Virus record (IMG/VR): IMGVR_UViG_3300005602_000011
Span: 1-25,617 of that record
DNA from: a virus
Length of the DNA stretch: 25,617 nucleotides
Direction: 5' to 3' (one strand)
A model generated the notes under the pieces. It was not told the origin of the DNA, did no database searches, and worked only from the letters and a program-made list of their open reading frames with translations. Every line of letters starts with the position of its first letter. The stretch's first letter is position 1. The position numbers and the translations under genes were made by a program. Below, piece after piece: positions 7,224 through 22,307 of the stretch.

Positions 7224-8576
7224 CTAATCCAACACCTGGGTCAAACCGGCGATGCCGATTTCTGGGCGCACGGGCTTCGCGGCTGCTTGTATTTGCATTT
7301 TATAGTAGCCGTTCGTCCCGTCCGGGTTATTGACGTTATCTCTAATGTTATACCAGGCGAGTTCACCGACATAATTTATCGGGTTGAACCCAGCCATTCC
7401 GTAGTTGGTGATGCCAATGGGGCGCACGCGCGCTTCCCAGACATCGTTCGGGAAGATGTAGAACACCTCATAGACCGCCAGACCACCGGCAGCGCCGTAC
7501 TTTGAAAGCGATTTGTAGGCCGGATTCGGGATGTTCTTCGTGCCCTTGGATGCCGCGACGTTGATCGTCGGGTAGATTTTCGTGACGCCATCGGCGGCGT
7601 AGCGGATCGGGTACAAGTCCATGTTTGGGATAAACCCGTTTATGGAGGTGTTGATGCCGCGAGCGGTGAAGTTCTGGAAGGCATCGCCCCAGTTGACGGT
7701 ATCACGAACCTGCGTGTCGTCCTGCCAGAGATGCTTCTTGAGTCCGGGGCCGCAGATCAGCGACAGGAGAGGCTGACCCTCCGAGTAGCCAACGGCGTTT
7801 ACCTCGGCACCGAGCTGCATGAGCTGGTCGTAGAGAGGAGCAAGCTGGTTCCAGCTCAGAACTTGGGTCGGAAGATTTCCGGCGAGCCCGCTGAAATTCT
7901 GATTACTGTCGTTGGAGCTAAAGATCGCGTCGCCCGTGAGCGTGGAAATCTTGGTGCCGCTGGCTCCAATGGACTTGATGCGATACCAATCCGACCAGAC
8001 GACCGTGATATATTGCATCAGATTCTTCTGGAGGTTCGCCACCATCTGTTCGGCCTGCCAGTCGAACTGAAGGTCAGTCAAACAGATCGAACGGCTCGTC
8101 CAGGAGTTGGCTTCGAGCTGATAATTGCGGCTGATTGAACCGTCGTCAATTTCAGTCGGAGTGTTGGAGCACGAAGAATTTGTGCCGTCAGATATAGCAA
8201 GGTTGTTCCATCCGCTTCCAGCATCGTCAGGATATAGCGTGGGCATGGCGCTCGTGGTCGTTACCACCATCGGAACGAGGCCGTCCATCGGCGTAAACTC
8301 CGCACGCGGGATGATCGAGATAAATGGATTTACACGCCAAATCCAGTTATAGATGGGCTCGACGAATTGGTTAACGGCCTGCTCGAAAAAGTTGTTTAGG
8401 GCCGGGATATTAGGGCCGGCGCGGGCCTCGCCAGGAACGGGCACCTGGGCCATGGTTGCGCAGAGAAACAGCGCGATGGCGGCTGGAGCCCAGCCGGACA
8501 GAAAGAAGAGGGAAACGCAAAGTAGGCAGCTTAGGAGCGCGAACTTTCGGTGAATGAATTGAAAGATTGATTTCAT
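7224..8576 (-). CDS. Probable major capsid protein, 450 aa
   Basis: The assignment rests mainly on position: it follows portal and scaffold-type genes in the normal head-gene order, has capsid-like length and is followed by a strong terminator. The body is an alpha/beta protein with a helix FEQAVNQFVEPIYNWIW near the start and a C-terminal strand region containing EVFYIFPNDVWEARVRPIGI, plausible for an HK97 fold but without a diagnostic motif. The first 45 residues from this ATG are oddly hydrophobic (FALLSCLLCVSLFFLSGW, then a second hydrophobic run), like a signal or anchor. Alternative starts are a GTG at 8612 (462 aa) and an ATG at 8453 (409 aa, MAQVPVPGEARAG). The last would give a normal capsid N-terminus. 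None has a good ribosome-binding site. Confidence 0.7.
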   Translation of the reverse strand: MKSIFQFIHRKFALLSCLLCVSLFFLSGWAPAAIALFLCATMAQVPVPGEARAGPNIPALNNFFEQAVNQFVEPIYNWIWRVNPFISIIPRAEFTPMDGLVPMVVTTTSAMPTLYPDDAGSGWNNLAISDGTNSSCSNTPTEIDDGSISRNYQLEANSWTSRSICLTDLQFDWQAEQMVANLQKNLMQYITVVWSDWYRIKSIGASGTKISTLTGDAIFSSNDSNQNFSGLAGNLPTQVLSWNQLAPLYDQLMQLGAEVNAVGYSEGQPLLSLICGPGLKKHLWQDDTQVRDTVNWGDAFQNFTARGINTSINGFIPNMDLYPIRYAADGVTKIYPTINVAASKGTKNIPNPAYKSLSKYGAAGGLAVYEVFYIFPNDVWEARVRPIGITNYGMAGFNPINYVGELAWYNIRDNVNNPDGTNGYYKMQIQAAAKPVRPEIGIAGLTQVLD

Positions 8577-8705
8577 GGGAAGGCTGACACTGACAGTTGA
8601 TGATCGACGCACGCGCGTAGGCGCATTGTTGCGTTCCAGATCGCGGGCCAGCCCGATCTATCCCTAACCAAGCCCATTCCGCTACGAGGTGCCCAAAACC
8701 CCGCA

Positions 8706-8766: not shown

Positions 8767-10125
8767 TCAGCGTCCAGCTAGTTTCGCGCGCCCAGGAAAA
8801 GCCTGATCGAGTAGTGAAGGCTTTTTCTCTTCCCATGTGCCTTCAGTCTTCGTGCTCGGCGCAGACGGCGCAGTAAAGCTTCCGGTGCCCTTGGCGGCCT
8901 TTATCGCAGCAAGTTCACCTTCAGCCTTGGCAAGCTTCGCCTGAAGGGCCGCCACACCTTTTTGGAAGAGCGGTTGACGGACTGCCACATGCTGTTCGAA
9001 TAGCGCGGCTTTAAGGGCCATATCAGCCGCAGATTTTGGCGTGAGTCGGCCAAAGGCATTCGCCTCGGCGCGGGCACGCACTTTGACCAGTTCAGCGTTG
9101 GCCCTCTCAATCACCTTTCGGTCTTCCGCCGAGGTTCCATCCGGAATGTCGAATGGCTTCATTAGATTATCCACGTCGAGCGCCGCGTAGGTTTCCTCAA
9201 AAGCTTGCTTGTTTTGGGCGGCATATTTTGCCTCAAGGCCGGCCTTCAGTTCACCAGCCGTGGCAAGCGCCGCGCGTTCCTCGCCGCCGATCTTGTAGGC
9301 CGTGCGCAGCCCATTGATGACGATATTGGCGTCAACGACATTCATGTCCTTCGTCAGCTCTGCGACCTTTGCCGTAAAATCTTTCTGAGGAAGGCCGAGG
9401 ATTTCCTTGAGGTCGGTCTGCTCTTTTCCGGTGTAGTTTAGCACCTCCTTGGCTTCGGTCAGCGCCGCCTCCTTAGGCTTCGTGAACTGATCCCGGTATT
9501 CGGGCGTACTCGGAAGGTCGATAATAGCCATGCGCTCCTTCATCGCCTTATAGTCGGCCTTGAGCTTTTCGACTTCGCCCGTCTCCACCGGAGTGGCTTT
9601 TTTCAGAGTTTCAAGATGCGCCTCCGCATCAGCCAGTTTTTGCTCAGCGGCCTTCAGGTCGGAATTCGCTTTTGTTTTGAGCGCCTTCCATCCTTTTTCC
9701 CCTTCTTTTGAAAGCCCATCGGGAGGCCCAATGTCAGAAAAACGGTCAACCTCTTCCGGAGATGGCGAAGGCTCCGGCTCTTTGGCCGGCGGAACTTCTG
9801 CCTTCGGTGGTTCTGAAGCAGGCTCTTTTTTATCCGGTTCTGCGGATGCAGGTGGAATAATCGCTGCCGGATCGGCCTTTGGCGGCTGCACTAAATCCTG
9901 CGGAGGGTTGGCCCCAGCATCGTAAATCTTGCGAAGCCCTTCCTTTAGCACAGCAGGCACGACTTCCATCGACTTCGGCGCTTTGCTGATGTCAGGAATG
10001 TCGGAGGACGTTGGCCGGCGCGTGGTCGGAGCCTTGACGTTGGCGGGTGGCGTCGGGCGCGGCTGGGCCGTTGGATTGATAGGCGCGGCGGGACGGGTGG
10101 GTGCAACTGGCGCTTCAGTGCTCAT
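8767..10125 (-). CDS. Probable head scaffolding protein, 452 aa
   Basis: The N-terminal third (residues 1 to about 135) is low complexity and rich in Pro, Ala, Glu and Lys. From about 140 to 205 there is a strong coiled coil (LKTKANSDLKAAEQKLADAE), with a second helical region at about 320-425 (VAALQAKLAKAEGELAAIKA). The tail is short and basic and ends in FPGRAKLAGR. Highly charged helical proteins placed directly before the capsid gene are typically scaffolds that guide shell assembly and are then removed; the basic tail would be the usual capsid-binding end. No protease motif is seen. The ATG overlaps the stop of the 125-aa gene upstream (ATGA at 10122-10125), giving a co-translated head unit. 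Sequence alone cannot exclude another internal head protein. Confidence 0.75.
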   Translation of the reverse strand: MSTEAPVAPTRPAAPINPTAQPRPTPPANVKAPTTRRPTSSDIPDISKAPKSMEVVPAVLKEGLRKIYDAGANPPQDLVQPPKADPAAIIPPASAEPDKKEPASEPPKAEVPPAKEPEPSPSPEEVDRFSDIGPPDGLSKEGEKGWKALKTKANSDLKAAEQKLADAEAHLETLKKATPVETGEVEKLKADYKAMKERMAIIDLPSTPEYRDQFTKPKEAALTEAKEVLNYTGKEQTDLKEILGLPQKDFTAKVAELTKDMNVVDANIVINGLRTAYKIGGEERAALATAGELKAGLEAKYAAQNKQAFEETYAALDVDNLMKPFDIPDGTSAEDRKVIERANAELVKVRARAEANAFGRLTPKSAADMALKAALFEQHVAVRQPLFQKGVAALQAKLAKAEGELAAIKAAKGTGSFTAPSAPSTKTEGTWEEKKPSLLDQAFPGRAKLAGR

Positions 10126-10499
10126 TTGGTTTTCTCCTCTTCGGGTTTCGTGTAGTCGATCCGACCGGCGTCGGGATAAGTTTCAGGTATCGCTTTTTTC
10201 TTTTGGACAGGCGGCATGACCTGCTTAACCAGCGCCACTTCGAACATTTGCCAACCCTGCTTTTTATGAAGCTGGTTGTTCCCGATTTGAAGGCCAAGCG
10301 CGGTGTTTAAGCCTTCCGGAAAATTCGTTGGCTGCTCGCAGCGCGCGTTATTCAGCACCTTTTCCCAAAGTGGGCTATTAAAAAAATCCCTAAGTGCCTC
10401 GCGCTCTTCGAGCGATAAATCCCGGTATTTGGGAATATTTACGGTTTCGTTTGTCAGGTGGGGGGCCAGCTCCACGTTCAGCCCTTTAGCTTTTGCCAT
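10122..10499 (-). CDS. Small head-module protein, 125 aa
   Basis: The protein is soluble, with a helical middle (LSLEEREALRDFFNSPLWEK) and a basic Lys/Pro-rich end (KPEEEKTK). It lies three bases downstream of the portal stop and overlaps the scaffold start by four bases, so the three genes are coupled. A short gene between portal and scaffold often encodes a head assembly or decoration-related factor, but no family is recognised here and no enzymatic motif is present. The ATG is the first in frame and begins MAKAKGLNVELAP. Confidence 0.65.
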   Translation of the reverse strand: MAKAKGLNVELAPHLTNETVNIPKYRDLSLEEREALRDFFNSPLWEKVLNNARCEQPTNFPEGLNTALGLQIGNNQLHKKQGWQMFEVALVKQVMPPVQKKKAIPETYPDAGRIDYTKPEEEKTK

Positions 10500-10502
10500 A
10501 AA

Positions 10503-12797
10503 TTATTGTGCCATCGCTGGCGCAGGAGATGGGGTAGCCTGCACACCGTTGGACGGCAAGCCAAATTGCTGAAGGAGTGCCGCCTTGGCGGCAGGGGGCA
10601 TGTCTTTGAAGTTAACGGAAATGGATTCGGTTGGGGGCTTCCCGTTGGCTCCAGGTGCAGCCCCGTTTGAAGGCTGCGCGTCCGAGGGCTGCGCTCCACC
10701 ACCAGAAATCGGAGTCTGCCCTGGGTTTTGTTTCTGAGATTGCATCCTTGTAAGGATTCCCCTCGCGACGCTCTGAACCTGACGGAAGACGGGCGTAATC
10801 TGCTGAAGCTGTTGTTTCTGAGTTTCGTCCTGTGAGAGAAATTGCATGTGCTGGCCGGAATGCTCGATGCCGAGCGTGAGCGCACTCGTGGCCTCGGGGG
10901 AGATCGTCTGCGTTTTCTGGAACGCTTGGATGATTCCCGCCAGCGGCTTGAGATGTTCCTGCAAGTGCTCGAAATGTGCGTCCTCTGGGGCCACGGGCAA
11001 ATCCAGACCTTGGCCGAACATGGAGTTTTCAACCATGGCCTTCCATCGTTGCTCGGGCTCGGAGCCCTGTCCTTGTGGAAGAAACGCCTGATTCATTGCG
11101 TTTGCCCCGTAAGTATAGGCAACGTAATTCTCGCGGAACCATTGCGCGTTGACTCCGGGCTGCATGGCAAATCCAGCAAGGTCTTCCTTGAACTTCTGAG
11201 CCATGAGTATTGGGTTTGCCATGCCAGAGTTGGCCCCGGTCTTAACCAATAACTCGGAATCGTGGATTACGTTGTCGGGCACTCCTCGATCCTGAAGTCG
11301 CTTCACAAAACGCTTGGCGTCCTTGTCTTTGTTTCCCTTTAGCCGAAGTCGGCGAATCTGCTCGGTGTAAATGTTTATTCCGACTTGGGCTAGAAATACG
11401 GCGGCTTGGGCAACGTTGAGCTGTCCTTGCATTTGGGAAAGAATCTTGGCCTGGGTTGCAGTATCGCTATTTTCGATCTGTTGTTGCTGCTGGTTGTAAA
11501 GCGCATTGTTCTGGTCGCGATTGGCCGTCAGCATCTCCAATACTTTTCCTGCCGGATCGAGCTGTGGATAAACCGTGAGCTGAGTCATTCCGCCAGGGAA
11601 GACGTTACACCATCCGTAGTTTTCGACCGGAGGTGTTTCTTCAGGAATGTTATCCGTACCGTATTGGAAATTGATTGCGGCTGCCACCGATGCACCGTCA
11701 ACCATCCGGCACTTCAGCCGATTGATGAGCGACGAAAAGAAAAAGTTTTTGATTCCGAATCCCTTAATCGAGTGAATCATCCCGTCTGTGCCAGTGTCAT
11801 ACCAAATAATGCCTAGCAGATGTTCCCATTCCTCGACCGATTTATCGTCTACAAAAAGAAATTCCTCGACCCCGACGTTTTGGGTGAAGACGTAACACCC
11901 GATCTTGCCTTTCTCGTCCGGGTTCTCGGGAAAGTTTCTCACAAACAGCCAGACGCAGCTTAACGGCTGGAAGGGCGTCGTGATAACAATGTCATTGTTA
12001 ACTAGCAAATCTTGGAAGCGCGTGTAATCTCGGTAATCTGGAAATTGTCCCGATCCCTGTTGCCCCATCGAAACGATAGCCGACTTGATTCCATTTATGT
12101 TCCAGCCGGCGTCCTCCGAAGTCTTGGATGTTTTTTGATCCCGGATTTTACCGTAAAGTTCGGATGCCCCAACATCGCGCACAAAAGCGAGCACTTCCCA
12201 CGACTCGGGATTCATCTGTGTGTTCTTAGGCCAGTAGAGCCGCTGCACATTGATCGACTTATAGCGTGGCGAGTCCTCGGTGTCGAACTGGGCTCCTCCT
12301 GGGCCAAGATCGACGAAATTGTTCACGAGTTTCATGAACTCGTCTTTGTACCCAGGCCAGTTTTCGTGGAACCAGTCAAACGCCTCTGAAAATGCGTTTT
12401 CCCATTTTCCGCAATGAGGGGAAGTCTCCGCGATCTTGAAAACAGCCCGATGGGGAACATCGTTGATGAGTTGCCAGTAGGGCGTGACCACGCGATCCCG
12501 CGCGGCCTTGGCGTCACCAAAATTGACGTTTGTAAGCCCAGCCATCCCCTGCGCCTCCATGTCTTCCGGAGCGAACGGACGACCGCCCTCAAGTTGGTTG
12601 CGTGTCTGCGAAATCGTGTTCGACCGTGCGATGTTATCGACCAGCATCCGGTTGAAAATCGTCCTCGCGCCCTCGACATCCTTGACGCGCCGATAAGCTA
12701 CAACGCGATCCCAGTCGGTTTCTGACGCCGTCTTAACCGGAACCTTCGCCGAAGGCTTTTTGGGCGGAGGTGCCCTGCCTTTGTTTTTGTCGGCCAC
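10503..12797 (-). CDS. Portal protein (podovirus-type length), 764 aa
   Basis: This is the largest complete gene and lies between the terminase side and the scaffold/capsid genes, where a portal is expected. A twelve-subunit portal forms the DNA entry ring and connector. The first 30 residues are basic and Pro-rich. The middle is rich in aromatic residues typical of portal wings and stems (YWQLINDV, WENAFSEAFDWFHENWPGYK), with a turn-rich region up to about residue 420. A Gln-rich helix (NNALYNQQQQQIENSDTATQ) precedes a long helical C-terminal part, ending in a low-complexity Gln/Pro/Gly/Ser tail. The start is GTG, six bases past the previous stop, directly behind a hairpin (12798-12813) that contains the G-rich ribosome-binding sequence. 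Identification rests on size, composition and gene order. Confidence 0.75.
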   Translation of the reverse strand: MADKNKGRAPPPKKPSAKVPVKTASETDWDRVVAYRRVKDVEGARTIFNRMLVDNIARSNTISQTRNQLEGGRPFAPEDMEAQGMAGLTNVNFGDAKAARDRVVTPYWQLINDVPHRAVFKIAETSPHCGKWENAFSEAFDWFHENWPGYKDEFMKLVNNFVDLGPGGAQFDTEDSPRYKSINVQRLYWPKNTQMNPESWEVLAFVRDVGASELYGKIRDQKTSKTSEDAGWNINGIKSAIVSMGQQGSGQFPDYRDYTRFQDLLVNNDIVITTPFQPLSCVWLFVRNFPENPDEKGKIGCYVFTQNVGVEEFLFVDDKSVEEWEHLLGIIWYDTGTDGMIHSIKGFGIKNFFFSSLINRLKCRMVDGASVAAAINFQYGTDNIPEETPPVENYGWCNVFPGGMTQLTVYPQLDPAGKVLEMLTANRDQNNALYNQQQQQIENSDTATQAKILSQMQGQLNVAQAAVFLAQVGINIYTEQIRRLRLKGNKDKDAKRFVKRLQDRGVPDNVIHDSELLVKTGANSGMANPILMAQKFKEDLAGFAMQPGVNAQWFRENYVAYTYGANAMNQAFLPQGQGSEPEQRWKAMVENSMFGQGLDLPVAPEDAHFEHLQEHLKPLAGIIQAFQKTQTISPEATSALTLGIEHSGQHMQFLSQDETQKQQLQQITPVFRQVQSVARGILTRMQSQKQNPGQTPISGGGAQPSDAQPSNGAAPGANGKPPTESISVNFKDMPPAAKAALLQQFGLPSNGVQATPSPAPAMAQ

Positions 12798-14262: not shown

Positions 14263-16011
14263 TTATTCGGCGTGCGCCGAGAACTCGTTGACGAATCTTT
14301 TTTGCAAACGCTTTTGCTTCTCCCGCATCTTACCCCAGTTTGATCCGCGCATTTGGCCGCCGAGACGCGGGCCGAGCAGCCCCTTGCGAACCATGAGTTC
14401 GCCGAACTGGCAGAAAGAATCCCCGTGATCGGGCGACCGGCCAATACGCGCCTTCATCTCGCGCTTACTCTCAGCCTGCATTAGCTTGTCTTCTGACGTT
14501 TTCTTTTTGTAACGGCGTGTGTCGAGGTCGACCACCGTCTTGGGGTCAATGTTGCTCACCCCACAGAGCATTCCGTCGCGAGCCAAGTATGATGCTCGAA
14601 ACCAAAGTTCGGTTACAAATAACTTCACCTGTTCCTTCGCCGGAAGGGCATCGTCCAAGCGCAATGGTCTATCTGTCGCCTCGCCGCCGTAGTAGATGCC
14701 CTCAATAGGGCCACCGCCAGCAAGTGGAGGCCACTCCTCGCGCATGATGGCGAACACGCCACGTCCATTCGAGGTCATGTCCATAATGAAATTATGCTGA
14801 TAGACGCCGTGCTCCTTGCAGAGCCTAATGCACTCGCGGGCGATCTGGTAGTCCTTCTCCGGGTATCCTGGGCCGACCTTGGCGTCGATCACGAAGGTTT
14901 TCTTGGCGCAGATGCAAGGACGGCCATTACGCAGCCGCCCGATCACGCCAAGGTTGAAAACGCATTCGTCGCTGTCGAATGCTGGGTCTAGCGATGCGCA
15001 GGGCGTTGCGCCGAAATCGAAGACTTCGTTTCGCTTGGCAAGATCGAGGGTGTTCGAGGGCCAAATCTTCGCGATCATGCCGTCCGGAGGGAAAAACCCC
15101 AAACCAAACATGTGGTACTCCACGGTATCTGGGTGCAGTCCTGTGAAGAATTCGTAGGACATCATCCACGGATTTACGGTTTTTTTCGCCTTAACATTTT
15201 GCGACTGTCTTCCGTCCAGATGTAACGTAACGCCGCGCGAATTTTCCCACCATAGGGTGGAATCAGTAATTGATCCCCATCCTCCATTTTTAGGCTGCGA
15301 CCATGCGCCATAAGTGCTCTGGCGTTCGGCGGGGTTTGTAAGAAGAACTCCTTTGAAATTTCCAGCCGCCAAACCGTTAGTCATGGCCATATAGATTCCT
15401 TCCGACATGTCCTGGCACTCGTCGGCGATTATCCGGTGGCGAGGCGGATGGTAGCCACGGAGCTTCGAGGCATTTTCGTCTCCTCTGTCAAGCGCCACAC
15501 CTTTTATCAGGAATTTCTGGTCGGCTACGTCGCCACGAAGCATGAACTTCATCTCGTTCGTACTGCTAGTGGTTCGGAACGTGGCATTGATCGCATCCTT
15601 CACACGAGAATTGGAAATACCAATCATCATGTCGCCAAAAAGCCGAACCTTCAGCATATCGAATTTCGTCGTTACCAAAAATGTTCCAGTGCTCTGCGGT
15701 GCGGCCAAGTAATCAAGCAGCGCAAAATGCGCCATGCCGAACGTCTTTCCGGCAGAGGCGTGACCCATGACGGAGATAACTGGATAGTTGCACCAAGCCC
15801 ACATCATCAGCTCCATCCACTCGTTAAAAGCGAAAACGCTTTCCGGCCAACAGATCGAAAAAGCTTTACGAAAGTGAAATTCCGTTGATTGACCGGTTTT
15901 AAATTCTTCGGGTCGTGAATAGCAGGCCAATTCCAAATTTAGGTCATTCGTGCCTTCCGGCCACTCAAAGCCATAGCGATTGATAAGCTTAGATTTTGTG
16001 GACGTTGCCAT
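14263..16011 (-). CDS. terL: Terminase large subunit (DNA packaging ATPase/nuclease), 582 aa
   Basis: This motor pumps phage DNA into the prohead at the portal and cuts the concatemer. The N-terminal ATPase has Walker A GHASAGKT (83-90), Walker B RIIADE with Asp197 and Glu198, and a coupling motif LLTNPA (223-228). The C-terminal RNase H-like nuclease has its acidic residues in SLDPAFDSDE (Asp342), FIMDMTSNGRG (Asp411) and RSPDHGDSFC (Asp528/Asp531). Length fits the family. The frame could begin at TTG 16017, but ATG at 16011 is preferred because it overlaps the stop of the HNH gene by one base (TGATG at 16009-16013). No small terminase subunit is recognisable beside it. It heads the long minus-strand late gene series. 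Confidence 0.95.
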   Translation of the reverse strand: MATSTKSKLINRYGFEWPEGTNDLNLELACYSRPEEFKTGQSTEFHFRKAFSICWPESVFAFNEWMELMMWAWCNYPVISVMGHASAGKTFGMAHFALLDYLAAPQSTGTFLVTTKFDMLKVRLFGDMMIGISNSRVKDAINATFRTTSSTNEMKFMLRGDVADQKFLIKGVALDRGDENASKLRGYHPPRHRIIADECQDMSEGIYMAMTNGLAAGNFKGVLLTNPAERQSTYGAWSQPKNGGWGSITDSTLWWENSRGVTLHLDGRQSQNVKAKKTVNPWMMSYEFFTGLHPDTVEYHMFGLGFFPPDGMIAKIWPSNTLDLAKRNEVFDFGATPCASLDPAFDSDECVFNLGVIGRLRNGRPCICAKKTFVIDAKVGPGYPEKDYQIARECIRLCKEHGVYQHNFIMDMTSNGRGVFAIMREEWPPLAGGGPIEGIYYGGEATDRPLRLDDALPAKEQVKLFVTELWFRASYLARDGMLCGVSNIDPKTVVDLDTRRYKKKTSEDKLMQAESKREMKARIGRSPDHGDSFCQFGELMVRKGLLGPRLGGQMRGSNWGKMREKQKRLQKRFVNEFSAHAE

Positions 16012-16490
16012 CAGCAAGCCCTTTTGAACTCACCGAAGAGCCTTGTCGAGGCAGCTTCATAGGCCGCGCTCGCTTCTTCTTTTGTCGGATAAACACCAAG
16101 GTATCTCTTCTGGGCGTGAGCGGCCCATTTTTTTGTCTTCTTATGCCAAGAAACTCCCTTGAATCCTGATTTATTGTCGATTCCAATTTTTCGGTTTCTA
16201 CAATTTTCTGCACGAGTGGCCTCACGCAGATTTATCAGCCTATTGTCTGATCTTTGTCCAGAAACATGGTCTAGTTCTTTATCGGGAAATTTCCCGTGGA
16301 CATACAGCCACACCAACCGGTGTGCCTGATAACGCTGACCGTCGACTGATATTCTCCAATATCCTTGGAAATTGAAGCATCCTGCAATTGCTCCAGACCG
16401 CTTATAACCATACGAAATTCTCCACTTAAAAACGCCAGTTTCTGGATCGTAGTCGAGCAACTCCCTTAGCCTTTTTTGCGTAAGTTTCAT
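16011..16490 (-). CDS. HNH endonuclease with AP2 DNA-binding domain, 159 aa
   Basis: Residues 8-30 carry LRELLDYDPETGVFKWR, the usual opening of this HNH family. The nuclease core runs AHRLVWLYVHGKFPDKELDH (56-75) and then SDNRLINLREATRAENCRNR (81-100), with candidate catalytic His57, His75, Asn83 and Asn95. An AP2-type DNA-binding domain follows (KSGFKGVSWHKKTKKWAA, then RYLGVYPTKEEASAAYEAAS). Such genes are homing endonucleases that copy themselves into related phages. Here it occupies the place directly ahead of the large terminase, where a small terminase often lies, and its TGA overlaps the terminase ATG by one base, so terminase translation may be coupled to it. It starts from the divergent control region at 16491-16534. 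Confidence 0.9.
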   Translation of the reverse strand: MKLTQKRLRELLDYDPETGVFKWRISYGYKRSGAIAGCFNFQGYWRISVDGQRYQAHRLVWLYVHGKFPDKELDHVSGQRSDNRLINLREATRAENCRNRKIGIDNKSGFKGVSWHKKTKKWAAHAQKRYLGVYPTKEEASAAYEAASTRLFGEFKRAC

Positions 16491-16534: not shown

Positions 16535-16759
16535 ATGAAAAGAGAATCATTCAAAGCCGAGCTGCAAATCCGCATTGATCCAGACGTGGCTTTGTTGCTC
16601 GTCGAGCACGCGGAACTTAATCGTCGCTCATGTAGCAAGGAAGCGTCCGACAGGTTGCGCTGGCTTTACGCGATCATGTCGCAGATCGGCACCAAGCGCC
16701 CATTCCCTCCGTTCGTCGATCCTGCGGCCCTGAAAACTGCGGTGGAGAAAATCCGTTGA
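16535..16759 (+). CDS. Ribbon-helix-helix-type putative regulator, 74 aa
   Basis: Residues 9-15 (LQIRIDP region) form the expected beta strand, followed by two helices at about 17-29 (DVALLLVEHAELN) and 33-47 (SCSKEASDRLRWLYA). This is the order and spacing of Arc/MetJ-type ribbon-helix-helix repressors, which bind palindromes as dimers. It is the first gene of the plus-strand glycosyltransferase cassette and starts one base after one arm of the inverted repeat at 16494-16533, so autoregulation and control of both divergent units are likely. The C-terminus, VDPAALKTAVEKIR, resembles the ends of two downstream proteins of unrelated type. DNA binding is inferred. Confidence 0.65.
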   Translation: MKRESFKAELQIRIDPDVALLLVEHAELNRRSCSKEASDRLRWLYAIMSQIGTKRPFPPFVDPAALKTAVEKIR

Positions 16760-16765
16760 AAATTT

Positions 16766-16966
16766 ATGAACTCACCACAAACAAAATTCGATAACGAAAA
16801 ATCAGATCTATTGGGGCACATTGAAAAATGCAGCGTCTTCCTTTCATCGCACGAACTTCCGCTTTCATCGGTTAATTTTTGCCATTCTATTCGTGCATGG
16901 CTGGACGGTATTGGGCCTGACATCGTTTTTAAGTGCGGGACATTCTCAGACGACCCTAATCGCTGA
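16766..16966 (+). CDS. Hypothetical protein, 66 aa
   Basis: This small acidic-to-neutral protein is placed between the regulator and the GT9 gene. It contains a helical first half (NEKSDLLGHIEKCSVFLSSH) and a C-terminal part with AWLDGIGPDIVFKCG. It has three cysteines, no membrane segment and no recognised motif. It starts six bases past the previous stop, and its own stop is two bases before the GTG of the GT9 gene, consistent with a polycistronic unit. No function is proposed. Confidence 0.5.
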   Translation: MNSPQTKFDNEKSDLLGHIEKCSVFLSSHELPLSSVNFCHSIRAWLDGIGPDIVFKCGTFSDDPNR

Positions 16967-16968
16967 CC

Positions 16969-18060
16969 GTGCATATCTTGACCATCACAAAGCCCGTGGA
17001 CATGGGGCCGTCTTTCGGAACGCTGCCCGCGGGCCAGTGGATCATGGGCGATACCAACGCATTCGAGATCGCGCTGTCGGCGGAGCGCGGGACGGCGACG
17101 ATGGATCAGTTCACAAACATCTATGACAAATCCGTGGGTCAGGAGGCGCTTATCATTCGCTCCGGCGCAATCGGCGATCTATTGTTGCTTACGACTGCAT
17201 TGAGGGCACTCAAACAATCTTCTAACAAAAGGGTGATCTTGTGCTGTTTTGAAAAGCACCACTCGATTTTTAAGGACAACGATTCCGTCGATTCGCTTAT
17301 ATCCTATCCCCTCCTCGCGGACGCCATTATCGGAGGAGATAAAAAAAAGCATCTAATCTGGCGTCCACAGACATTTCAAGGGCATATCTTTTCTCTCGAA
17401 AATGTCATTGAGCTTGCGACCGACGTTCACGCGACCGATGCATTTGCGAAGGCATTGGGCGTGACCGTGACAGATTACAAGCCGATCTACATTGTCTCAG
17501 ATCAGGAGAAAAAAGATGCCTTGGCGTGGAAAAAAGAATTCGGCACGCGTCCGCTGGTCGGAATCCAGATGCGCGCCTCGACACGCAACCGAGATTATCC
17601 GGCCCAGCAATGGGCGAAAGTAATTCTTGGCCTGGAGGACGTCGGCTGGGCTGTAATCCTTTTCGGCCAGCCTGGCCAAATTCCACCGCTACCGCCAGAA
17701 CTTCAGCGTCCGTTCATCCACGATGCGAGCCAGTCCGATATGTCCCTGCGAGAATCCGTCTCAATCCTGTCGGTCTGCGACGCCTTCGTCGGCGTAGATT
17801 CGGCTTTCCTGCACTTCTGCCATGCGCTCGACGTTCCGGCGGTCGGTTTGTTTGCAGCGTTCGACTGGCGGACGCGAACGTCCAAGGCTCCGCTCACGCG
17901 AGCCATCAGCGGCCACGGGGAGTGCGCGCCATGCTCGTGGCTTGGAAAACTTGGTCAGCACTTCCCGCCCATGCCTTGCCGCCAGCGTCAGATTTGCAGC
18001 GTGCTGGCCTCTATCGAACCCGACAAAATTATCGCCGCCGTGGAGAAAATCCGCACATGA
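16969..18060 (+). CDS. GT9 (heptosyltransferase-type) glycosyltransferase, 363 aa
   Basis: The GT9 family transfers heptose or related sugars from nucleotide donors, classically to the LPS core. Residues 60-82 match its N-terminal signature (LIIRSGAIGDLLLLTTALRA, with Gly69-Asp70). The C-terminal half has PLVGIQMRAST (195-205), a donor-side strand WAVILFGQPG, and CDAFVGVDSAFLHFCHALDV (270-289), matching the nucleotide-sugar site of GT-B enzymes. Extra features are an N-terminal segment of about 55 residues (GTLPAGQWIMGDTNAFEI) and a C-terminal cysteine set C319-x2-C322, C337 and C343. The start is GTG. The protein ends with IEPDKIIAAVEKIRT, repeated in form by the next small protein. It overlaps that gene by four bases. 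The actual sugar and acceptor are unknown. Confidence 0.85.
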   Translation: MHILTITKPVDMGPSFGTLPAGQWIMGDTNAFEIALSAERGTATMDQFTNIYDKSVGQEALIIRSGAIGDLLLLTTALRALKQSSNKRVILCCFEKHHSIFKDNDSVDSLISYPLLADAIIGGDKKKHLIWRPQTFQGHIFSLENVIELATDVHATDAFAKALGVTVTDYKPIYIVSDQEKKDALAWKKEFGTRPLVGIQMRASTRNRDYPAQQWAKVILGLEDVGWAVILFGQPGQIPPLPPELQRPFIHDASQSDMSLRESVSILSVCDAFVGVDSAFLHFCHALDVPAVGLFAAFDWRTRTSKAPLTRAISGHGECAPCSWLGKLGQHFPPMPCRQRQICSVLASIEPDKIIAAVEKIRT

Positions 18061-18272
18061 ACCCGCACATCAAATCACTGAAAGATGGTTTGTATCTCGT
18101 GGTAGATCGCGAAGAACCCGGACAATTTTCGGTGATTGACCGCACTGGAGGGTTTACATGGCAAATGGGACACGACCGCGTGACACCCGATTCAGAATGG
18201 TTGGATCACACAGAATTTTACCCAATCGACCCTAAGCAGGTCATCGCCGCAGTGGAGAAACTGAAGCCATGA
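18057..18272 (+). CDS. Hypothetical protein with AVEK C-terminal tail, 71 aa
   Basis: The frame is open upstream inside the GT9 gene, but the ATG at 18057 (ATGA overlap) with GGAG 11 bases upstream is the natural start. The N-terminal 55 residues look like a small beta protein (DGLYLVVDREEPGQFSVIDR). The last 15 residues (IDPKQVIAAVEKLKP) closely resemble the tails of the GT9 protein and of the regulator, although the rest is unrelated. It could be a small partner protein carrying a common docking helix. Its stop overlaps the next ATG. Confidence 0.6.
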   Translation: MNPHIKSLKDGLYLVVDREEPGQFSVIDRTGGFTWQMGHDRVTPDSEWLDHTEFYPIDPKQVIAAVEKLKP

Positions 18273-18541
18273 ATCCTAGAGACTACGCCGAATCCGACCC
18301 ATATAAATCGGACGAGATTTTCAAACGCCTAAAGGTCGGGGTTTCGTTCACTTATCTTGGGATTGAAATGATTGTGACCCGTCAAGTGGCATTCACTCCA
18401 TCGTTATACATTCCATGCTTTCCTTGTAGTCTAGATGCTCCCGCGACGCTTCCCGAGCTTCATTGTGAATATAAGGACAACAATGGTGTTTTAATAACCA
18501 AGGTTTTCGAGCGAGATCAACTCCGATCACTTTTAACATGA
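18269..18541 (+). CDS. Hypothetical protein, 90 aa
   Basis: This soluble alpha/beta protein has strands FTYLGIEMIVTRQVAFTPS and two closely spaced cysteines in IPCFPCSLD. It overlaps the preceding gene by four bases (ATGA, with GGAG 11 bases upstream), and its stop overlaps the following ATG. It ends KVFERDQLRSLLT and so lacks the AVEK tail of its upstream neighbours. No family is recognised. Its position inside the glycosyltransferase cassette suggests an accessory role in the same process, which is inference. Confidence 0.6.
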   Translation: MNPRDYAESDPYKSDEIFKRLKVGVSFTYLGIEMIVTRQVAFTPSLYIPCFPCSLDAPATLPELHCEYKDNNGVLITKVFERDQLRSLLT

Positions 18542-18765
18542 AAGCCACTATCTCCATCCCCGACGACTGCATGGAACATCTTGAGGAAATCTACAAAGGA
18601 CACATCGACCTCTGTAATGCTTATGCCTGCAAGCATCCTGTGCTATCTAAATCTATTGCTATCGAAACCGCGAAACAGAGAATCATGATTGCTGGATTGG
18701 CCCTCCATGAAAAGATTGAATTGGTTCGCCAACTGAATGATAGAGAAATAATCGCTCGCGCATGA
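18538..18765 (+). CDS. Hypothetical protein, 75 aa
   Basis: The protein opens with MKATISIPDDCMEHLEEIYK, a strand-then-helix start reminiscent of ribbon-helix-helix proteins, and continues with helices (IAIETAKQRIMIAGLALHEK). It might be a second small regulator, but the second half does not clearly complete that fold. It overlaps both neighbours by four bases. The first seven residues are identical to those of the following glycosyltransferase, with third-position differences in the DNA. Confidence 0.55.
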   Translation: MKATISIPDDCMEHLEEIYKGHIDLCNAYACKHPVLSKSIAIETAKQRIMIAGLALHEKIELVRQLNDREIIARA

Positions 18766-19454
18766 AAGCTACAATTTCAATAGTTTGCCACCTTGCGCTT
18801 GCTCAGGCAAAGTCCTGCATCGCCTCCGTGCTCAACGGAGGTGGCGACTTTGATTTGATTCTTACAGCCAACGGAAACCTAGACGCGTTTAAGTATTTCG
18901 GCGAACTAGGTTCCTCTCGGGAGGGAATAAAGGTCATCATGCACGACCACAACAGAGGATTTATTGAACCGAATAAGTTGGCGCTACAAGCAACTGATTC
19001 TCCTATTTTTGTGATGCTCAACGACGACGCCATTGTGCCAAAAGGCTGGCTCGGCAAGATCGTAGAACAATTCGAGAAACACCCAACCGCGTCTGTCGTT
19101 GGCCCTATCGGGCGACGCTTACGCGATAATTTCGTAGGTGGGCTTCCGTGCTCCGATAAGGAGCCGCCAGAATACATCGAAGGCTGCTGCTTCGCTATCC
19201 GCACGGACTTGGCAAAGCTCTACGGGCTATTTGATCCGAACTTACACTTTGCATATGGTGAGGAAAGTGATTGCTGCTTGAGGATGCGCCAGCTCGGTTA
19301 CACGATTCATGTCGCCCCGTTCCAAATCATCCACAATGCCGGCACAACCACCCGTCATGTTCCCGAGGCCAAGCTTCACTTTGACATGAACCATGCTTAC
19401 CTGAGAAATAAATGGTCAGAATATCTCAAAACCCACAAATTTCCCCACGAATGA
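18762..19454 (+). CDS. GT2-type glycosyltransferase, 230 aa
   Basis: The fold is GT-A: an N-terminal strand MKATISIVCHLALAQAKSCI, a donor-binding region ILTANGNLDA, and NDDAIVPKGWL with the metal-binding DD at 88-89. The acceptor-side motif YGEESDCCLRMRQLGYTIHV (165-184) holds the likely catalytic acid and resembles rhamnosyltransferase-type GT2 enzymes. His191 in IIHNAGTTTRH is a plausible metal ligand. It is short but contains the whole catalytic core, and no membrane segment is present, so it is probably a soluble or peripheral enzyme. It overlaps both neighbours by four bases. The sugar donor cannot be told from sequence. Confidence 0.85.
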   Translation: MKATISIVCHLALAQAKSCIASVLNGGGDFDLILTANGNLDAFKYFGELGSSREGIKVIMHDHNRGFIEPNKLALQATDSPIFVMLNDDAIVPKGWLGKIVEQFEKHPTASVVGPIGRRLRDNFVGGLPCSDKEPPEYIEGCCFAIRTDLAKLYGLFDPNLHFAYGEESDCCLRMRQLGYTIHVAPFQIIHNAGTTTRHVPEAKLHFDMNHAYLRNKWSEYLKTHKFPHE

Positions 19455-20758
19455 AGATTACTGTTCTGACCACGGCTTGTCATCGGCCTGAAGCGTGGAC
19501 ACTCTGCGAGGGTTACATTAAGGCGCAGACTCGCCAGCCGGATCAATGGCTGGTTCTTGACGACGATGATCCCGCCACGGTTTGCACGCTCAAACAGCAG
19601 TACCACTATTGGCCGGAGTTTCGGGGCCGTGGTAGTCTCACGCGAAAAGTCACGCGGGCTGTTAACGAAAACTTAATAACTGGCGACGCTCTCGTTTTCA
19701 TCGAAAACGATGATGCCTATAACCCGACCTACCTTGAGAACGTAGAGAAATGGCTTCAGCAGGCCGACATTGTCGGCGAAGGAGATTCGGTGTATTACAA
19801 TGTGCAGCACCGAAAATGGTTTTCCCACAAGAACCACCAGCACGCCAGCCTGTGCTCGACGGCTCTACGGCGATCAGTTTTTCCGCTTCTTCTCAAGGCT
19901 GCCAACACCGATGACCCTTACATCGACTGGCGGCTCTGGAATATGGTCAACCATCCGCTGAAGAAAAAGGTGTGGATGCCTCAAGATCATCTTCCCAATG
20001 GCCGCCTCTGCGTCGGAATGAAGGGAATGCCAGGAAAACTTGGATACGGCACCGGCCACACAGTCGAATGGATGAAGGGCTGCACGCCCGATCCACAGCT
20101 TGTGAAACTCACACAAATGATGGGCAAGGACGCAGAAGCCTACCGGCCATTTTACCTCAACCACTCGCAAGAAATTATGGACACCAAAAAATATCTTTCA
20201 CCCACCGACCAGGGACATGGCGACAAATGGGAAAAATGGCTCGGCCATCTTATTGGAAAGCCAGCCATCGGTCTTGAAATAGGAACCTTTCGTGGAGAGT
20301 CAGCGGAGGTCATGCTTACGCGGGTATTTACGCATCCGGATTCTTTTTACATCTGCATTGATCCGTTTACTGGGTCTCCAGAGCACGCTCTAAATAAAAT
20401 CGACTGCTCTAAATGCGAGTCTGACACTAGGGATCGACTTAGTAAATTCGGAAAGAAGGTCATCATCCATAAGGATGAGTCTCGGGTGGCTATCAAGGAA
20501 TACATGGGAAGACGTGATCTTGATTTTGTCTATGTTGACGGAGCCCACGACTCCATGAACACGCTGCGTGACGGGGTGATGGCATTCGAGGGATTAAAGG
20601 TCGGGGGAATCATGATCTTCGATGACCTTACCTGGAAGGGTATGCCTGACCCGATTGACTGCACAGAGATGGCAATTCGGGCTTTCATGCAGTGTTACGC
20701 AAAACAAATTCAGGTTATCGGGGCCGACTCGCAACTTGGCCTAAGAAAGATCGCGTGA
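19451..20758 (+). CDS. Fusion of GT-A glycosyltransferase-like and SAM-methyltransferase domains, 435 aa
   Basis: The ATG at 19451 overlaps the previous stop (ATGA) and is preferred to an upstream ATG at 19412. Residues 1 to about 225 are a GT-A-like domain: ITVLTTACHRPEAWTLCEGY at the start, QWLVLDDDDP (32-41) and FIENDDAY (83-90) with the DxD-like acidic pair. Residues about 265-435 are a class I methyltransferase of the Methyltransf_24 kind: IGLEIGTFRGESAEV (SAM loop, about 273-287), ICIDPFTG (301-308), LDFVYVDGAHDSMNTLRDGV and IMIFDDLTW. One polypeptide may therefore add a sugar and methylate it or a neighbouring sugar, a capping step known in polysaccharide synthesis. That use is inference. 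It overlaps the next gene by four bases (GTGA). Confidence 0.8.
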   Translation: MKITVLTTACHRPEAWTLCEGYIKAQTRQPDQWLVLDDDDPATVCTLKQQYHYWPEFRGRGSLTRKVTRAVNENLITGDALVFIENDDAYNPTYLENVEKWLQQADIVGEGDSVYYNVQHRKWFSHKNHQHASLCSTALRRSVFPLLLKAANTDDPYIDWRLWNMVNHPLKKKVWMPQDHLPNGRLCVGMKGMPGKLGYGTGHTVEWMKGCTPDPQLVKLTQMMGKDAEAYRPFYLNHSQEIMDTKKYLSPTDQGHGDKWEKWLGHLIGKPAIGLEIGTFRGESAEVMLTRVFTHPDSFYICIDPFTGSPEHALNKIDCSKCESDTRDRLSKFGKKVIIHKDESRVAIKEYMGRRDLDFVYVDGAHDSMNTLRDGVMAFEGLKVGGIMIFDDLTWKGMPDPIDCTEMAIRAFMQCYAKQIQVIGADSQLGLRKIA

Positions 20759-21507
20759 AAATCGAGGCCTTCATTCTCTGTTATCTTGAGGCCGACATAA
20801 TCGGGTATTGCGTGAGACACTATGCCAGCTTTTGCGACCGGGTGAAAGTGATCGACCTGGGGTCGAACGATGGCAGTCAGGAAACGGCCAAGCGCGAGGG
20901 GGCGGAGATAATTCAGGACGATTGCGCGGGGATTTTCGACGACAGAAAAAATCAGAACCTGAAAAATACCTGCTGGCACGGCACCGATGCGGATTGGGTG
21001 ATTGTGGCGGATGCGGATGAGTTGATATTTTTCCCCCACGGCTCTTTCTCCACTTTGGCGGCCTATGACGCCCAGGATTTGCCTATCATCAAGACCCATG
21101 GATTCGAGATGTTCAGCGACGCCTATCCGACGACCGACCGGCAGATTTACGACGAGGTGAAAGAAGGCGCTCCCGATGACCAATGGTACGGTAAAAAATG
21201 CCTGTTCTCGCCCAAGCGAGTGAAGTCGATTTCGTTCACGATGGGTGCCCATTCCGTGTGGGAGGCGTTCCTCCACAATGGACAGCGCGTAACCGACCCG
21301 GCCCGATTCCCTGAACCTCCCTGCTGGTTGCTTCACTTCCACCACCTGGGAGGGTTGGATCGCGTCGCCCGGAGATATGACGAAAATTACAAACGCCAGT
21401 GCGAAAATAATCACAGGCACAAATTCGGAAACCAACAAAAAGGAATTATCCACGCGAACGAAAAACGCTCGATGATCCTGTCGAAACTGCGCAGGGTTAT
21501 TCCATGA
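20755..21507 (+). CDS. GT-A glycosyltransferase-like protein (DADE motif), 250 aa
   Basis: GTG at 20755 (overlapping the TGA of the fusion gene) starts the conserved region directly: VKIEAFILCYLEADIIGYCV. The segment VKVIDLGSNDGSQETAKREG matches the nucleotide-binding part of GT2-related enzymes that often begin with E.DII..W/Y. VIVADADELIF (82-92) carries the metal-binding acidic motif DADE. Histidines in FTMGAHSVW (162-170) and LLHFHHLGG (192-200) probably complete the site. The C-terminus is basic (HRHKFGNQQKG). No transmembrane segment is present. It overlaps the next gene by four bases. Donor and acceptor are unknown. Confidence 0.75.
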   Translation: MKIEAFILCYLEADIIGYCVRHYASFCDRVKVIDLGSNDGSQETAKREGAEIIQDDCAGIFDDRKNQNLKNTCWHGTDADWVIVADADELIFFPHGSFSTLAAYDAQDLPIIKTHGFEMFSDAYPTTDRQIYDEVKEGAPDDQWYGKKCLFSPKRVKSISFTMGAHSVWEAFLHNGQRVTDPARFPEPPCWLLHFHHLGGLDRVARRYDENYKRQCENNHRHKFGNQQKGIIHANEKRSMILSKLRRVIP

Positions 21508-22307
21508 GCATCATATCGGTTAACCTTCAGGAGGGTTTCGGGAATCGTTGCAGCCAGTATGCTTTTGCTCGCGCCTACTCGGAAAAGCACGGCTGCACCC
21601 TGCAAACAAACTTTTGGATGGGTCAGAAGGTTTTCCAGATAGACGATCCACGGATTGAAAAGCCGCTTCCTGTTCGGCGCATGGAGGACATCGACCGTTG
21701 GAACGGCGAGGTTGACATTGAGGTGTCAGGCTGGGGTCAGCACCAACGATGCCTGATTTACAGCCGGGCCGATGCGCGCCGTTATTTCACTTTTCGCCCG
21801 GAAATCATTTCGATGCTAGTGAACGTGCCCAAGTACGATATTGCGGCGCACCTGCGTTGGGCGGATTTCCTGTCGATCCCGGACGCCGGATTCATCGCTA
21901 TTTCCAAGGAATCCTACCTCATCGCGTGCGACCATTTCGGAATCGACCGTAGTAAGCTCAGGTTCATACAGGAGGAGTCTCCTCTTGTGGTACCACAGAT
22001 TGAACCTGGCTATTGGATTTCGCCTCATAGCGACCACCACACGCGCTCGGATGACCCACGTATCACAAGCCTTGGGTTTCTTCCCGATTTCTACGCGCTG
22101 ATGCAGGCTGACATCCTGTTTCGGGCCAACTCCACCTTTAGTCTATGGGCGGCGATCCTAGGCCATCACTCGCGCATTTTCAGCCCGAACCTGAACGGGA
22201 TAAAAAAGCGATCTGGATTCCAAGAAGTGCCGTTCTTTGAGGGGAACCACTGCGCCATAACGAGCGATGCCAATTACCACACTGAATTGAACCTGCGTGA
22301 GACGTGA
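21504..22307 (+). CDS. GT11-like (alpha-1,2-fucosyltransferase-type) enzyme, 267 aa
   Basis: The N-terminus NLQEGFGNRCSQYAFARAYS corresponds to the G.GNQ..QYA.A opening of GT11. IAAHLRWADFL (113-123) corresponds to the HxRxxD donor-binding motif. The acceptor-side FRANSTFSLWAAILGHHSRI (206-225) matches the SNSSFSWWAA block. These are three family landmarks in the right order. GT11 enzymes usually transfer fucose from GDP-fucose. Whether this one uses fucose or another deoxy sugar is not shown. A host nucleotide-sugar supply would be required, since no biosynthesis genes are present. It is the last gene of the cassette and stops four bases from the convergent large gene, with no clear terminator. 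Confidence 0.8.
   Translation: MSIISVNLQEGFGNRCSQYAFARAYSEKHGCTLQTNFWMGQKVFQIDDPRIEKPLPVRRMEDIDRWNGEVDIEVSGWGQHQRCLIYSRADARRYFTFRPEIISMLVNVPKYDIAAHLRWADFLSIPDAGFIAISKESYLIACDHFGIDRSKLRFIQEESPLVVPQIEPGYWISPHSDHHTRSDDPRITSLGFLPDFYALMQADILFRANSTFSLWAAILGHHSRIFSPNLNGIKKRSGFQEVPFFEGNHCAITSDANYHTELNLRET

Follow-up and report, generated by a model that had tools for sequence, protein, structure and literature searches.

A glycosyltransferase-methyltransferase cassette kept at one site in a family of uncultured phages, with a virion glycan as a candidate product

The capsid of chlorovirus PBCV-1 is N-glycosylated, and the virus encodes for this A064R, in which two glycosyltransferase (GT) parts are joined to a methyltransferase, together with A061L (PMC9614988). 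Mimivirus L230 is a virus-encoded GT fused to a lysyl hydroxylase, and it modifies collagen-like virion proteins (PMC4691112). For mycobacteriophages, the passages of PMC12619734 citing Freeman et al. 2023 describe phage-encoded GTs and glycans on the capsid and the tail tube. Here we analysed a viral DNA of 25,617 nucleotides (IMG/VR record IMGVR_UViG_3300005602_000011; the whole stretch is called the window), in which a ten-gene GT cassette had been predicted from the sequence.

The cassette consists of ten plus-strand ORFs (g1 to g10, 16535-22307), which lie head to tail and oppose the direction of the late genes. Seven of the nine junctions are 4-base overlaps (g3-g4, g4-g5, g5-g6, g6-g7, g7-g8, g8-g9 and g9-g10), and short gaps separate g1 from g2 and g2 from g3; the starts of g4 (18057), g8 (19451) and g9 (GTG, 20755) were set by comparison with relatives. 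All of the ORFs of the original prediction, ten head-to-tail genes with mostly 4-base overlaps that run against the terminase and a large gene, are therefore present. The flanking genes are on the minus strand. They are the terminase large subunit (14263-16017; phrog_2 4e-10 and alignment), an HNH/AP2 endonuclease between terminase and cassette (16011-16490; phrog_99 2e-64, HNH_3 6e-14), and a large late gene of 1101 aa that runs off the contig (22312-25617), which is the same neighbour in relatives. An assembly join between phage and host DNA, a possibility raised together with the prediction, was ruled out because terminase, cassette and large gene occur together in five other contigs. Promoter and terminator scans gave no matches above chance level. 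HNH endonuclease genes are dispersed among the late genes of the window (16011-16490 and 6518-7174), and the 16011-type gene has several copies in relatives. The tail protein encoded at 2563-4410 has a C-terminal part that looks SGNH hydrolase-like by eye and has no Pfam match.

The enzymes of the cassette are g3 and g7 to g10, all on the plus strand. g3 (16969-18060; six phages) is a GT9 glycosyltransferase, with a PF01075 match of 6e-19 (68.8 bits, cut-off 22) and profile matches to 3tov, WaaF and WaaC. The GT9 proteins of the phage family share about 60 extra residues at the N terminus (MHxxT...G..G.L.PG.W...D..AFE; 16969-17148 in the window), which lie outside the Pfam domain and possibly have a docking role. 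A role as a TibC-like protein heptosyltransferase was considered for g3 and rejected: the match reached only E 0.8, and the TibC paper makes no mention of GT9. g7 (18762-19454) is a GT2 glycosyltransferase (PF00535 4e-12) kept in six phages. g8 (19451-20758) is predicted to join a GT-A glycosyltransferase to an O-methyltransferase of the sugar type, the chlorovirus type of fusion. Its methyltransferase part matches Methyltransf_24 (4e-11) and, by profile, MeT1 (6g7d, 2.6e-5), which its model also matches; its GT part is weak by sequence, and the model (pTM 0.50) matches GT-A enzymes such as SpsA. g9 (20755-21507, GTG start; six phages) is a PF13704/GT92-like GT-A glycosyltransferase (PF13704 1e-11) with a profile match to the flagellin glycosyltransferase GmaR (2.3e-6), a remote similarity that the common GT-A fold may explain. 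g10 (21504-22307) is without any Pfam match. Its AlphaFold2 model (pLDDT 74.7, pTM 0.80; the structure models were built on shallow alignments of 6 and 8 sequences) matched FUT8, NodZ and plant FUT1 in Foldseek at E about 1e-5, which suggested a fucosyltransferase-fold, GT11-like glycosyltransferase. These matches span fucosyltransferases of several families. No relative was found with g10 as a lone query, and relatives are present in phages L002, L003 and L009. The predicted GT9, GT2 and GT-methyltransferase fusion are thus supported by Pfam families, with the GT part of g8 supported by its model.

The GT9 assignment bears on the target of the cassette. WaaF and WaaC are soluble or peripheral cytoplasmic enzymes of the LPS core. 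Most GT9 enzymes of known function act in building the LPS core, a pathway that likewise works without membrane proteins; modification of the host surface is for this reason the main rival to a virion target, and a serious one. During infection the enzymes, working from the cytoplasm, would extend or cap the LPS core or another surface glycan of the host and so hide receptors from competing phages or released progeny. The profile matches of g3 to WaaF and WaaC favour this proposal. We consider it less likely than a virion target. By hydropathy no cassette protein has a hydrophobic segment typical of membrane helices, and no flippase, polymerase or Gtr-type or Wzx/Wzy-type membrane protein is found among them, which counts against it. 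The methyltransferase part of g8 opens another alternative. MeT1 is a glycan O-methyltransferase whose substrate is a cytosolic polysaccharide, and the product of the cassette could be a free or storage oligosaccharide, or its substrate a host small molecule, with no tie to surfaces or virions. Nothing direct favours this beyond MeT1 being the closest methyltransferase structure. We regard it as improbable, given that the enzymes are associated with virion genes in unrelated phages and the cassette is co-inherited with structural genes (below).

g1 (16535-16759, plus strand) encodes a probable ribbon-helix-helix (RHH)-like small protein and probable cassette regulator. Its motif, (L)QVRIDxDV..A...RS.SKEAS, lies directly upstream of the GT9 region in 6/6 family members; the RHH-like gene adjoins GT9, with one small ORF intervening in the window and in G004. 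The assignment comes from this motif in the window and five relatives, since all Arc/RHH Pfam scores of g1-type proteins fall below the cut-off (the G011 protein misses Arc by 0.1 bit). The regulator of the original prediction therefore has a shared motif in six phages behind it, but no Pfam match above threshold. The small plus-strand ORFs g2 (16766-16966), g4 (18057-18272) and g5 (18269-18541) have no family match, g6 (18538-18765) has no convincing one, and none of these four was seen in relatives. The C-terminal tails of g1, g3 and g4 are similar (..AVEKIR, AAVEKIRT and AAVEKLKP; 16719-16759, 18019-18060 and 18237-18272), and those of g1 and g4 may have been copied from the C-terminus of GT9. 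The stretch GTGGAGAAA within the tails could be a ribosome-binding site for the next gene.

It had also been proposed that the enzymes form a compact glycan route that includes a methyltransferase but lacks genes for nucleotide-sugar synthesis, and our family searches agree with this. Nucleotidyltransferase PF00483 and epimerase PF01370 are absent from nine related records, while 14/14 control genomes gave matches, so the sugar donors probably come from the host. The thymidylate-synthase-type hydroxymethylase PF00303 is absent from nine related records, with its controls detected. G003 is probably near-complete, because its contig starts and finishes in the same repeat gene; its genes scanned with Pfam include a PolA-type replication module and a single DNA methylase, and none of them matches a hypermodification family. 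A TET/JBP scan was uninformative, as its control stayed silent. The cassette might instead glycosylate modified bases of the phage DNA as a protection against restriction. Viral GTs whose substrate is 5-hydroxymethylcytosine DNA do exist (Pyle et al. 2024, in the passages of PMC12619734 that cite it), but the missing hydroxymethylase in the nine records and the missing hypermodification families in G003 led us to downgrade DNA modification to very improbable.

To see how the cassette is inherited, its close relatives were compared. G001, G003 and G004 are kin of the window by terminase, portal and capsid (capsid gene at 7224-8612 in the window), and G002 duplicates G001. Since these phages were found via the cassette gene g9, a second scan was made with the capsid protein. 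It gave two more phages with the terminase region, G011 and G012, and the cassette was present in both. The order RHH-GT9-GT2-GT(±methyltransferase)-PF13704 was found in 6/6 distinct family members with a readable terminase region, and in all six the site is between terminase and large gene, on the strand opposite the late genes. The GT genes are thus conserved across the phage family. The 3' end is variable: the window has g10 there, G004 has a methyltransferase and a PF04488 GT, and no further cassette gene follows g9 in G001, G003, G011 and G012. The predicted combination is therefore borne out as a conserved core, which occurs in the same order in close relatives and neither as single genes nor in unrelated orders; the full ten-gene set occurs only in the window contig, g10 and the small ORFs being variable.

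Selection on the cassette was estimated for G001/G003, the one pair close enough throughout (synonymous sites of G011/G012 are mostly saturated). dN/dS was 0.21 for GT9, 0.08 for g8 and 0.10 for g9, versus 0.10 for terminase and 0.06 for capsid. In this pair, purifying selection acts on the cassette enzymes at a level like that on terminase and capsid. The concatenated cassette tree has the unrooted topology of the terminase and portal tree, and the single-gene GT9 and g9 trees place G004 in a different position. Within the window's family the replication genes, not the late genes, lie on the same strand as the cassette. Early expression is therefore possible, which would suit modification of the host surface; this strand does not choose between virion and host-surface targets. 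As a single-sequence query the terminase had no match among viral contigs or named phages. No prophage was found with the terminase profile as query, which argues against a host-surface role. Several features outside the cassette were also seen in these phages. The contigs of G001 and G003 start and finish in the same tandem-repeat gene KRAPLDADYEA (L126 start, L128 end, L129 start, L131 end), which probably broke their assembly. The helicase has 915 aa in G011 (L148 6823-9570) versus 558 aa in G012 (L149 11419-13095), and the insert is intein-like (ATGLGKCLGKGTPVLLYDG). In G003 a Cpn10 (GroES-like) gene is found close to the tail genes (L129 5892-6281), and a small protein similar to Cpn10 is encoded directly before the cassette in L003.

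The g9 profile detected 70 viral loci, 56 of them distinct. In 45/56 another cassette-type GT or methyltransferase is encoded on the same strand at a distance of up to 3 kb, and 29/56 have a g8-type GT; these counts describe the loci and do not test an association, because the loci were selected through g9 without a matched control and the profiles had been iterated on these same loci. Named phages gave only remote GT or methyltransferase matches. In L002 and L003, which have T7-like portals, the module is part of the late operon: it shares the strand of the scaffold and major capsid genes and lies between them, in the order Anp1-like GT (below the Pfam cut-off), methyltransferase, g8-type GT, g9, methyltransferase, g10 and two DUF3431-like genes. 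L004 has a similar run of GT and methyltransferase genes between terminase and structural genes. The core enzymes therefore recur in phages with unrelated virions. Expression within a late structural operon would be late for superinfection exclusion, which again argues against modification of the host surface. Additional GT genes inside the fibre operon argue in the same direction: G011, whose g8 has no methyltransferase domain, carries a gene for a GT2 fused to a methyltransferase among collagen-like fibre genes, and G012 carries a similar GT2 gene in such a place. G003 holds a PF04488 GT among its tail genes. GTs near fibre genes of pelagimyophages have, however, been interpreted as acting on the host surface (PMC7029224). 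The enzymes are also fused in different ways, GT2 with the g8-type GT in G004, the g8-type GT with the methyltransferase in the window, G001, G003, G012 and L011, and the g8-type GT with g9 in L009 (one ORF, 9326-10756). These differing fusions of the same enzymes suggest which steps are consecutive. A g9 scan of genome contigs gave a single match, L157, which is the L003 phage placed in a fen-derived Armatimonadetes MAG, by contamination or as a hint of the host.

Of the three targets first proposed, the virion is now best supported, host-surface modification is still a rival, and DNA is disfavoured by the missing hydroxymethylase. Our preferred reading is that sugars are added to a virion protein one by one, because the enzymes are soluble and neither donor-synthesis genes, nor a thymidylate-synthase-type hydroxymethylase, nor (in G003) a hypermodification family was found. 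Under this model the RHH-like g1 probably controls the operon, nucleotide-sugar donors of the host would feed the soluble enzymes, and these would build up an oligosaccharide in successive steps on a virion protein, with a tail fibre as the likeliest acceptor. In most family members the methyltransferase would put an O-methyl group on a sugar. In our judgement the chances are about even that the cassette makes such a short, usually O-methylated virion glycan; the acceptor, the order of sugar addition, the methylation of a sugar and the control by g1 are all inferred parts of the model. Support for it comes from the fixed site, strand and order in six members, two of them found via a capsid gene. 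Also for it are the purifying selection and the agreement of the cassette tree with the terminase and portal tree, the place of the module between scaffold and capsid genes in T7-portal phages, the extra GT genes among G011/G012 fibre genes and G003 tail genes, the three kinds of fusion (GT2+GT, GT+methyltransferase, GT+g9), the lack of transmembrane segments in the cassette proteins, and the likeness of the methyltransferase part to MeT1 and of g9 to GmaR. Against it are the LPS-core role of most known GT9 enzymes, the replication-gene strand, the g8 of G011 without methyltransferase and the remoteness of the GmaR similarity. Within the window the best candidate acceptor, judged from composition and homology, is the Ser/Thr-rich (28%) fibre-like protein encoded at 4731-6134 on the minus strand, whose first 45 residues are 47% identical to the G012 collagen-like fibre (E 4e-8).

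If the virion is the target, multi-enzyme virion glycosylation would be passed down within a whole phage family rather than being a sporadic accessory, and this would bear on adsorption and on how hosts and antibodies recognise phages. Such genes should then not be labelled DNA- or LPS-modifying by default. More tentatively, somewhat short of an even chance, unrelated tailed-phage lineages may have a common modular assembly line (PF13704-type GT, g8-type GT, sugar methyltransferases and fucosyltransferase-like GT) that makes methyl-capped oligosaccharides on fibres or capsids, a bacterial-virus counterpart of chlorovirus glycosylation.

PBCV-1 and the cassette are alike in virus-encoded, mostly soluble GTs and a GT-methyltransferase fusion; PBCV-1 takes many donors from its host, as the cassette probably does, and methyl-caps the glycan of a virion protein (PMC9614988). 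PBCV-1 differs in being an algal virus with other GT families and proven capsid N-glycans, whereas the cassette is known from its genes. With mycobacteriophages the cassette shares phage-encoded GTs, and glycans on virion proteins are a mycobacteriophage feature; the cited mycobacteriophage passages describe no multi-enzyme cassette with a methyltransferase at a fixed site. Pelagimyophages, also uncultured, resemble the cassette phages in that their host-recognition cluster places several GT genes close to genes for fibres, but this cluster is a hypervariable region interpreted as LPS modification, whereas the order and site of the cassette are conserved family-wide (PMC7029224). Like the Mimivirus L230 system, G011 and G012 combine a GT gene with collagen-like fibres; unlike it, the cassette phages show no GT-lysyl hydroxylase fusion, and the window has no collagen-like repeat. 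Judged from the open-access literature, virus-encoded virion glycosylation is already known, and the conserved, fixed-site GT/methyltransferase cassette would be a variant of it.
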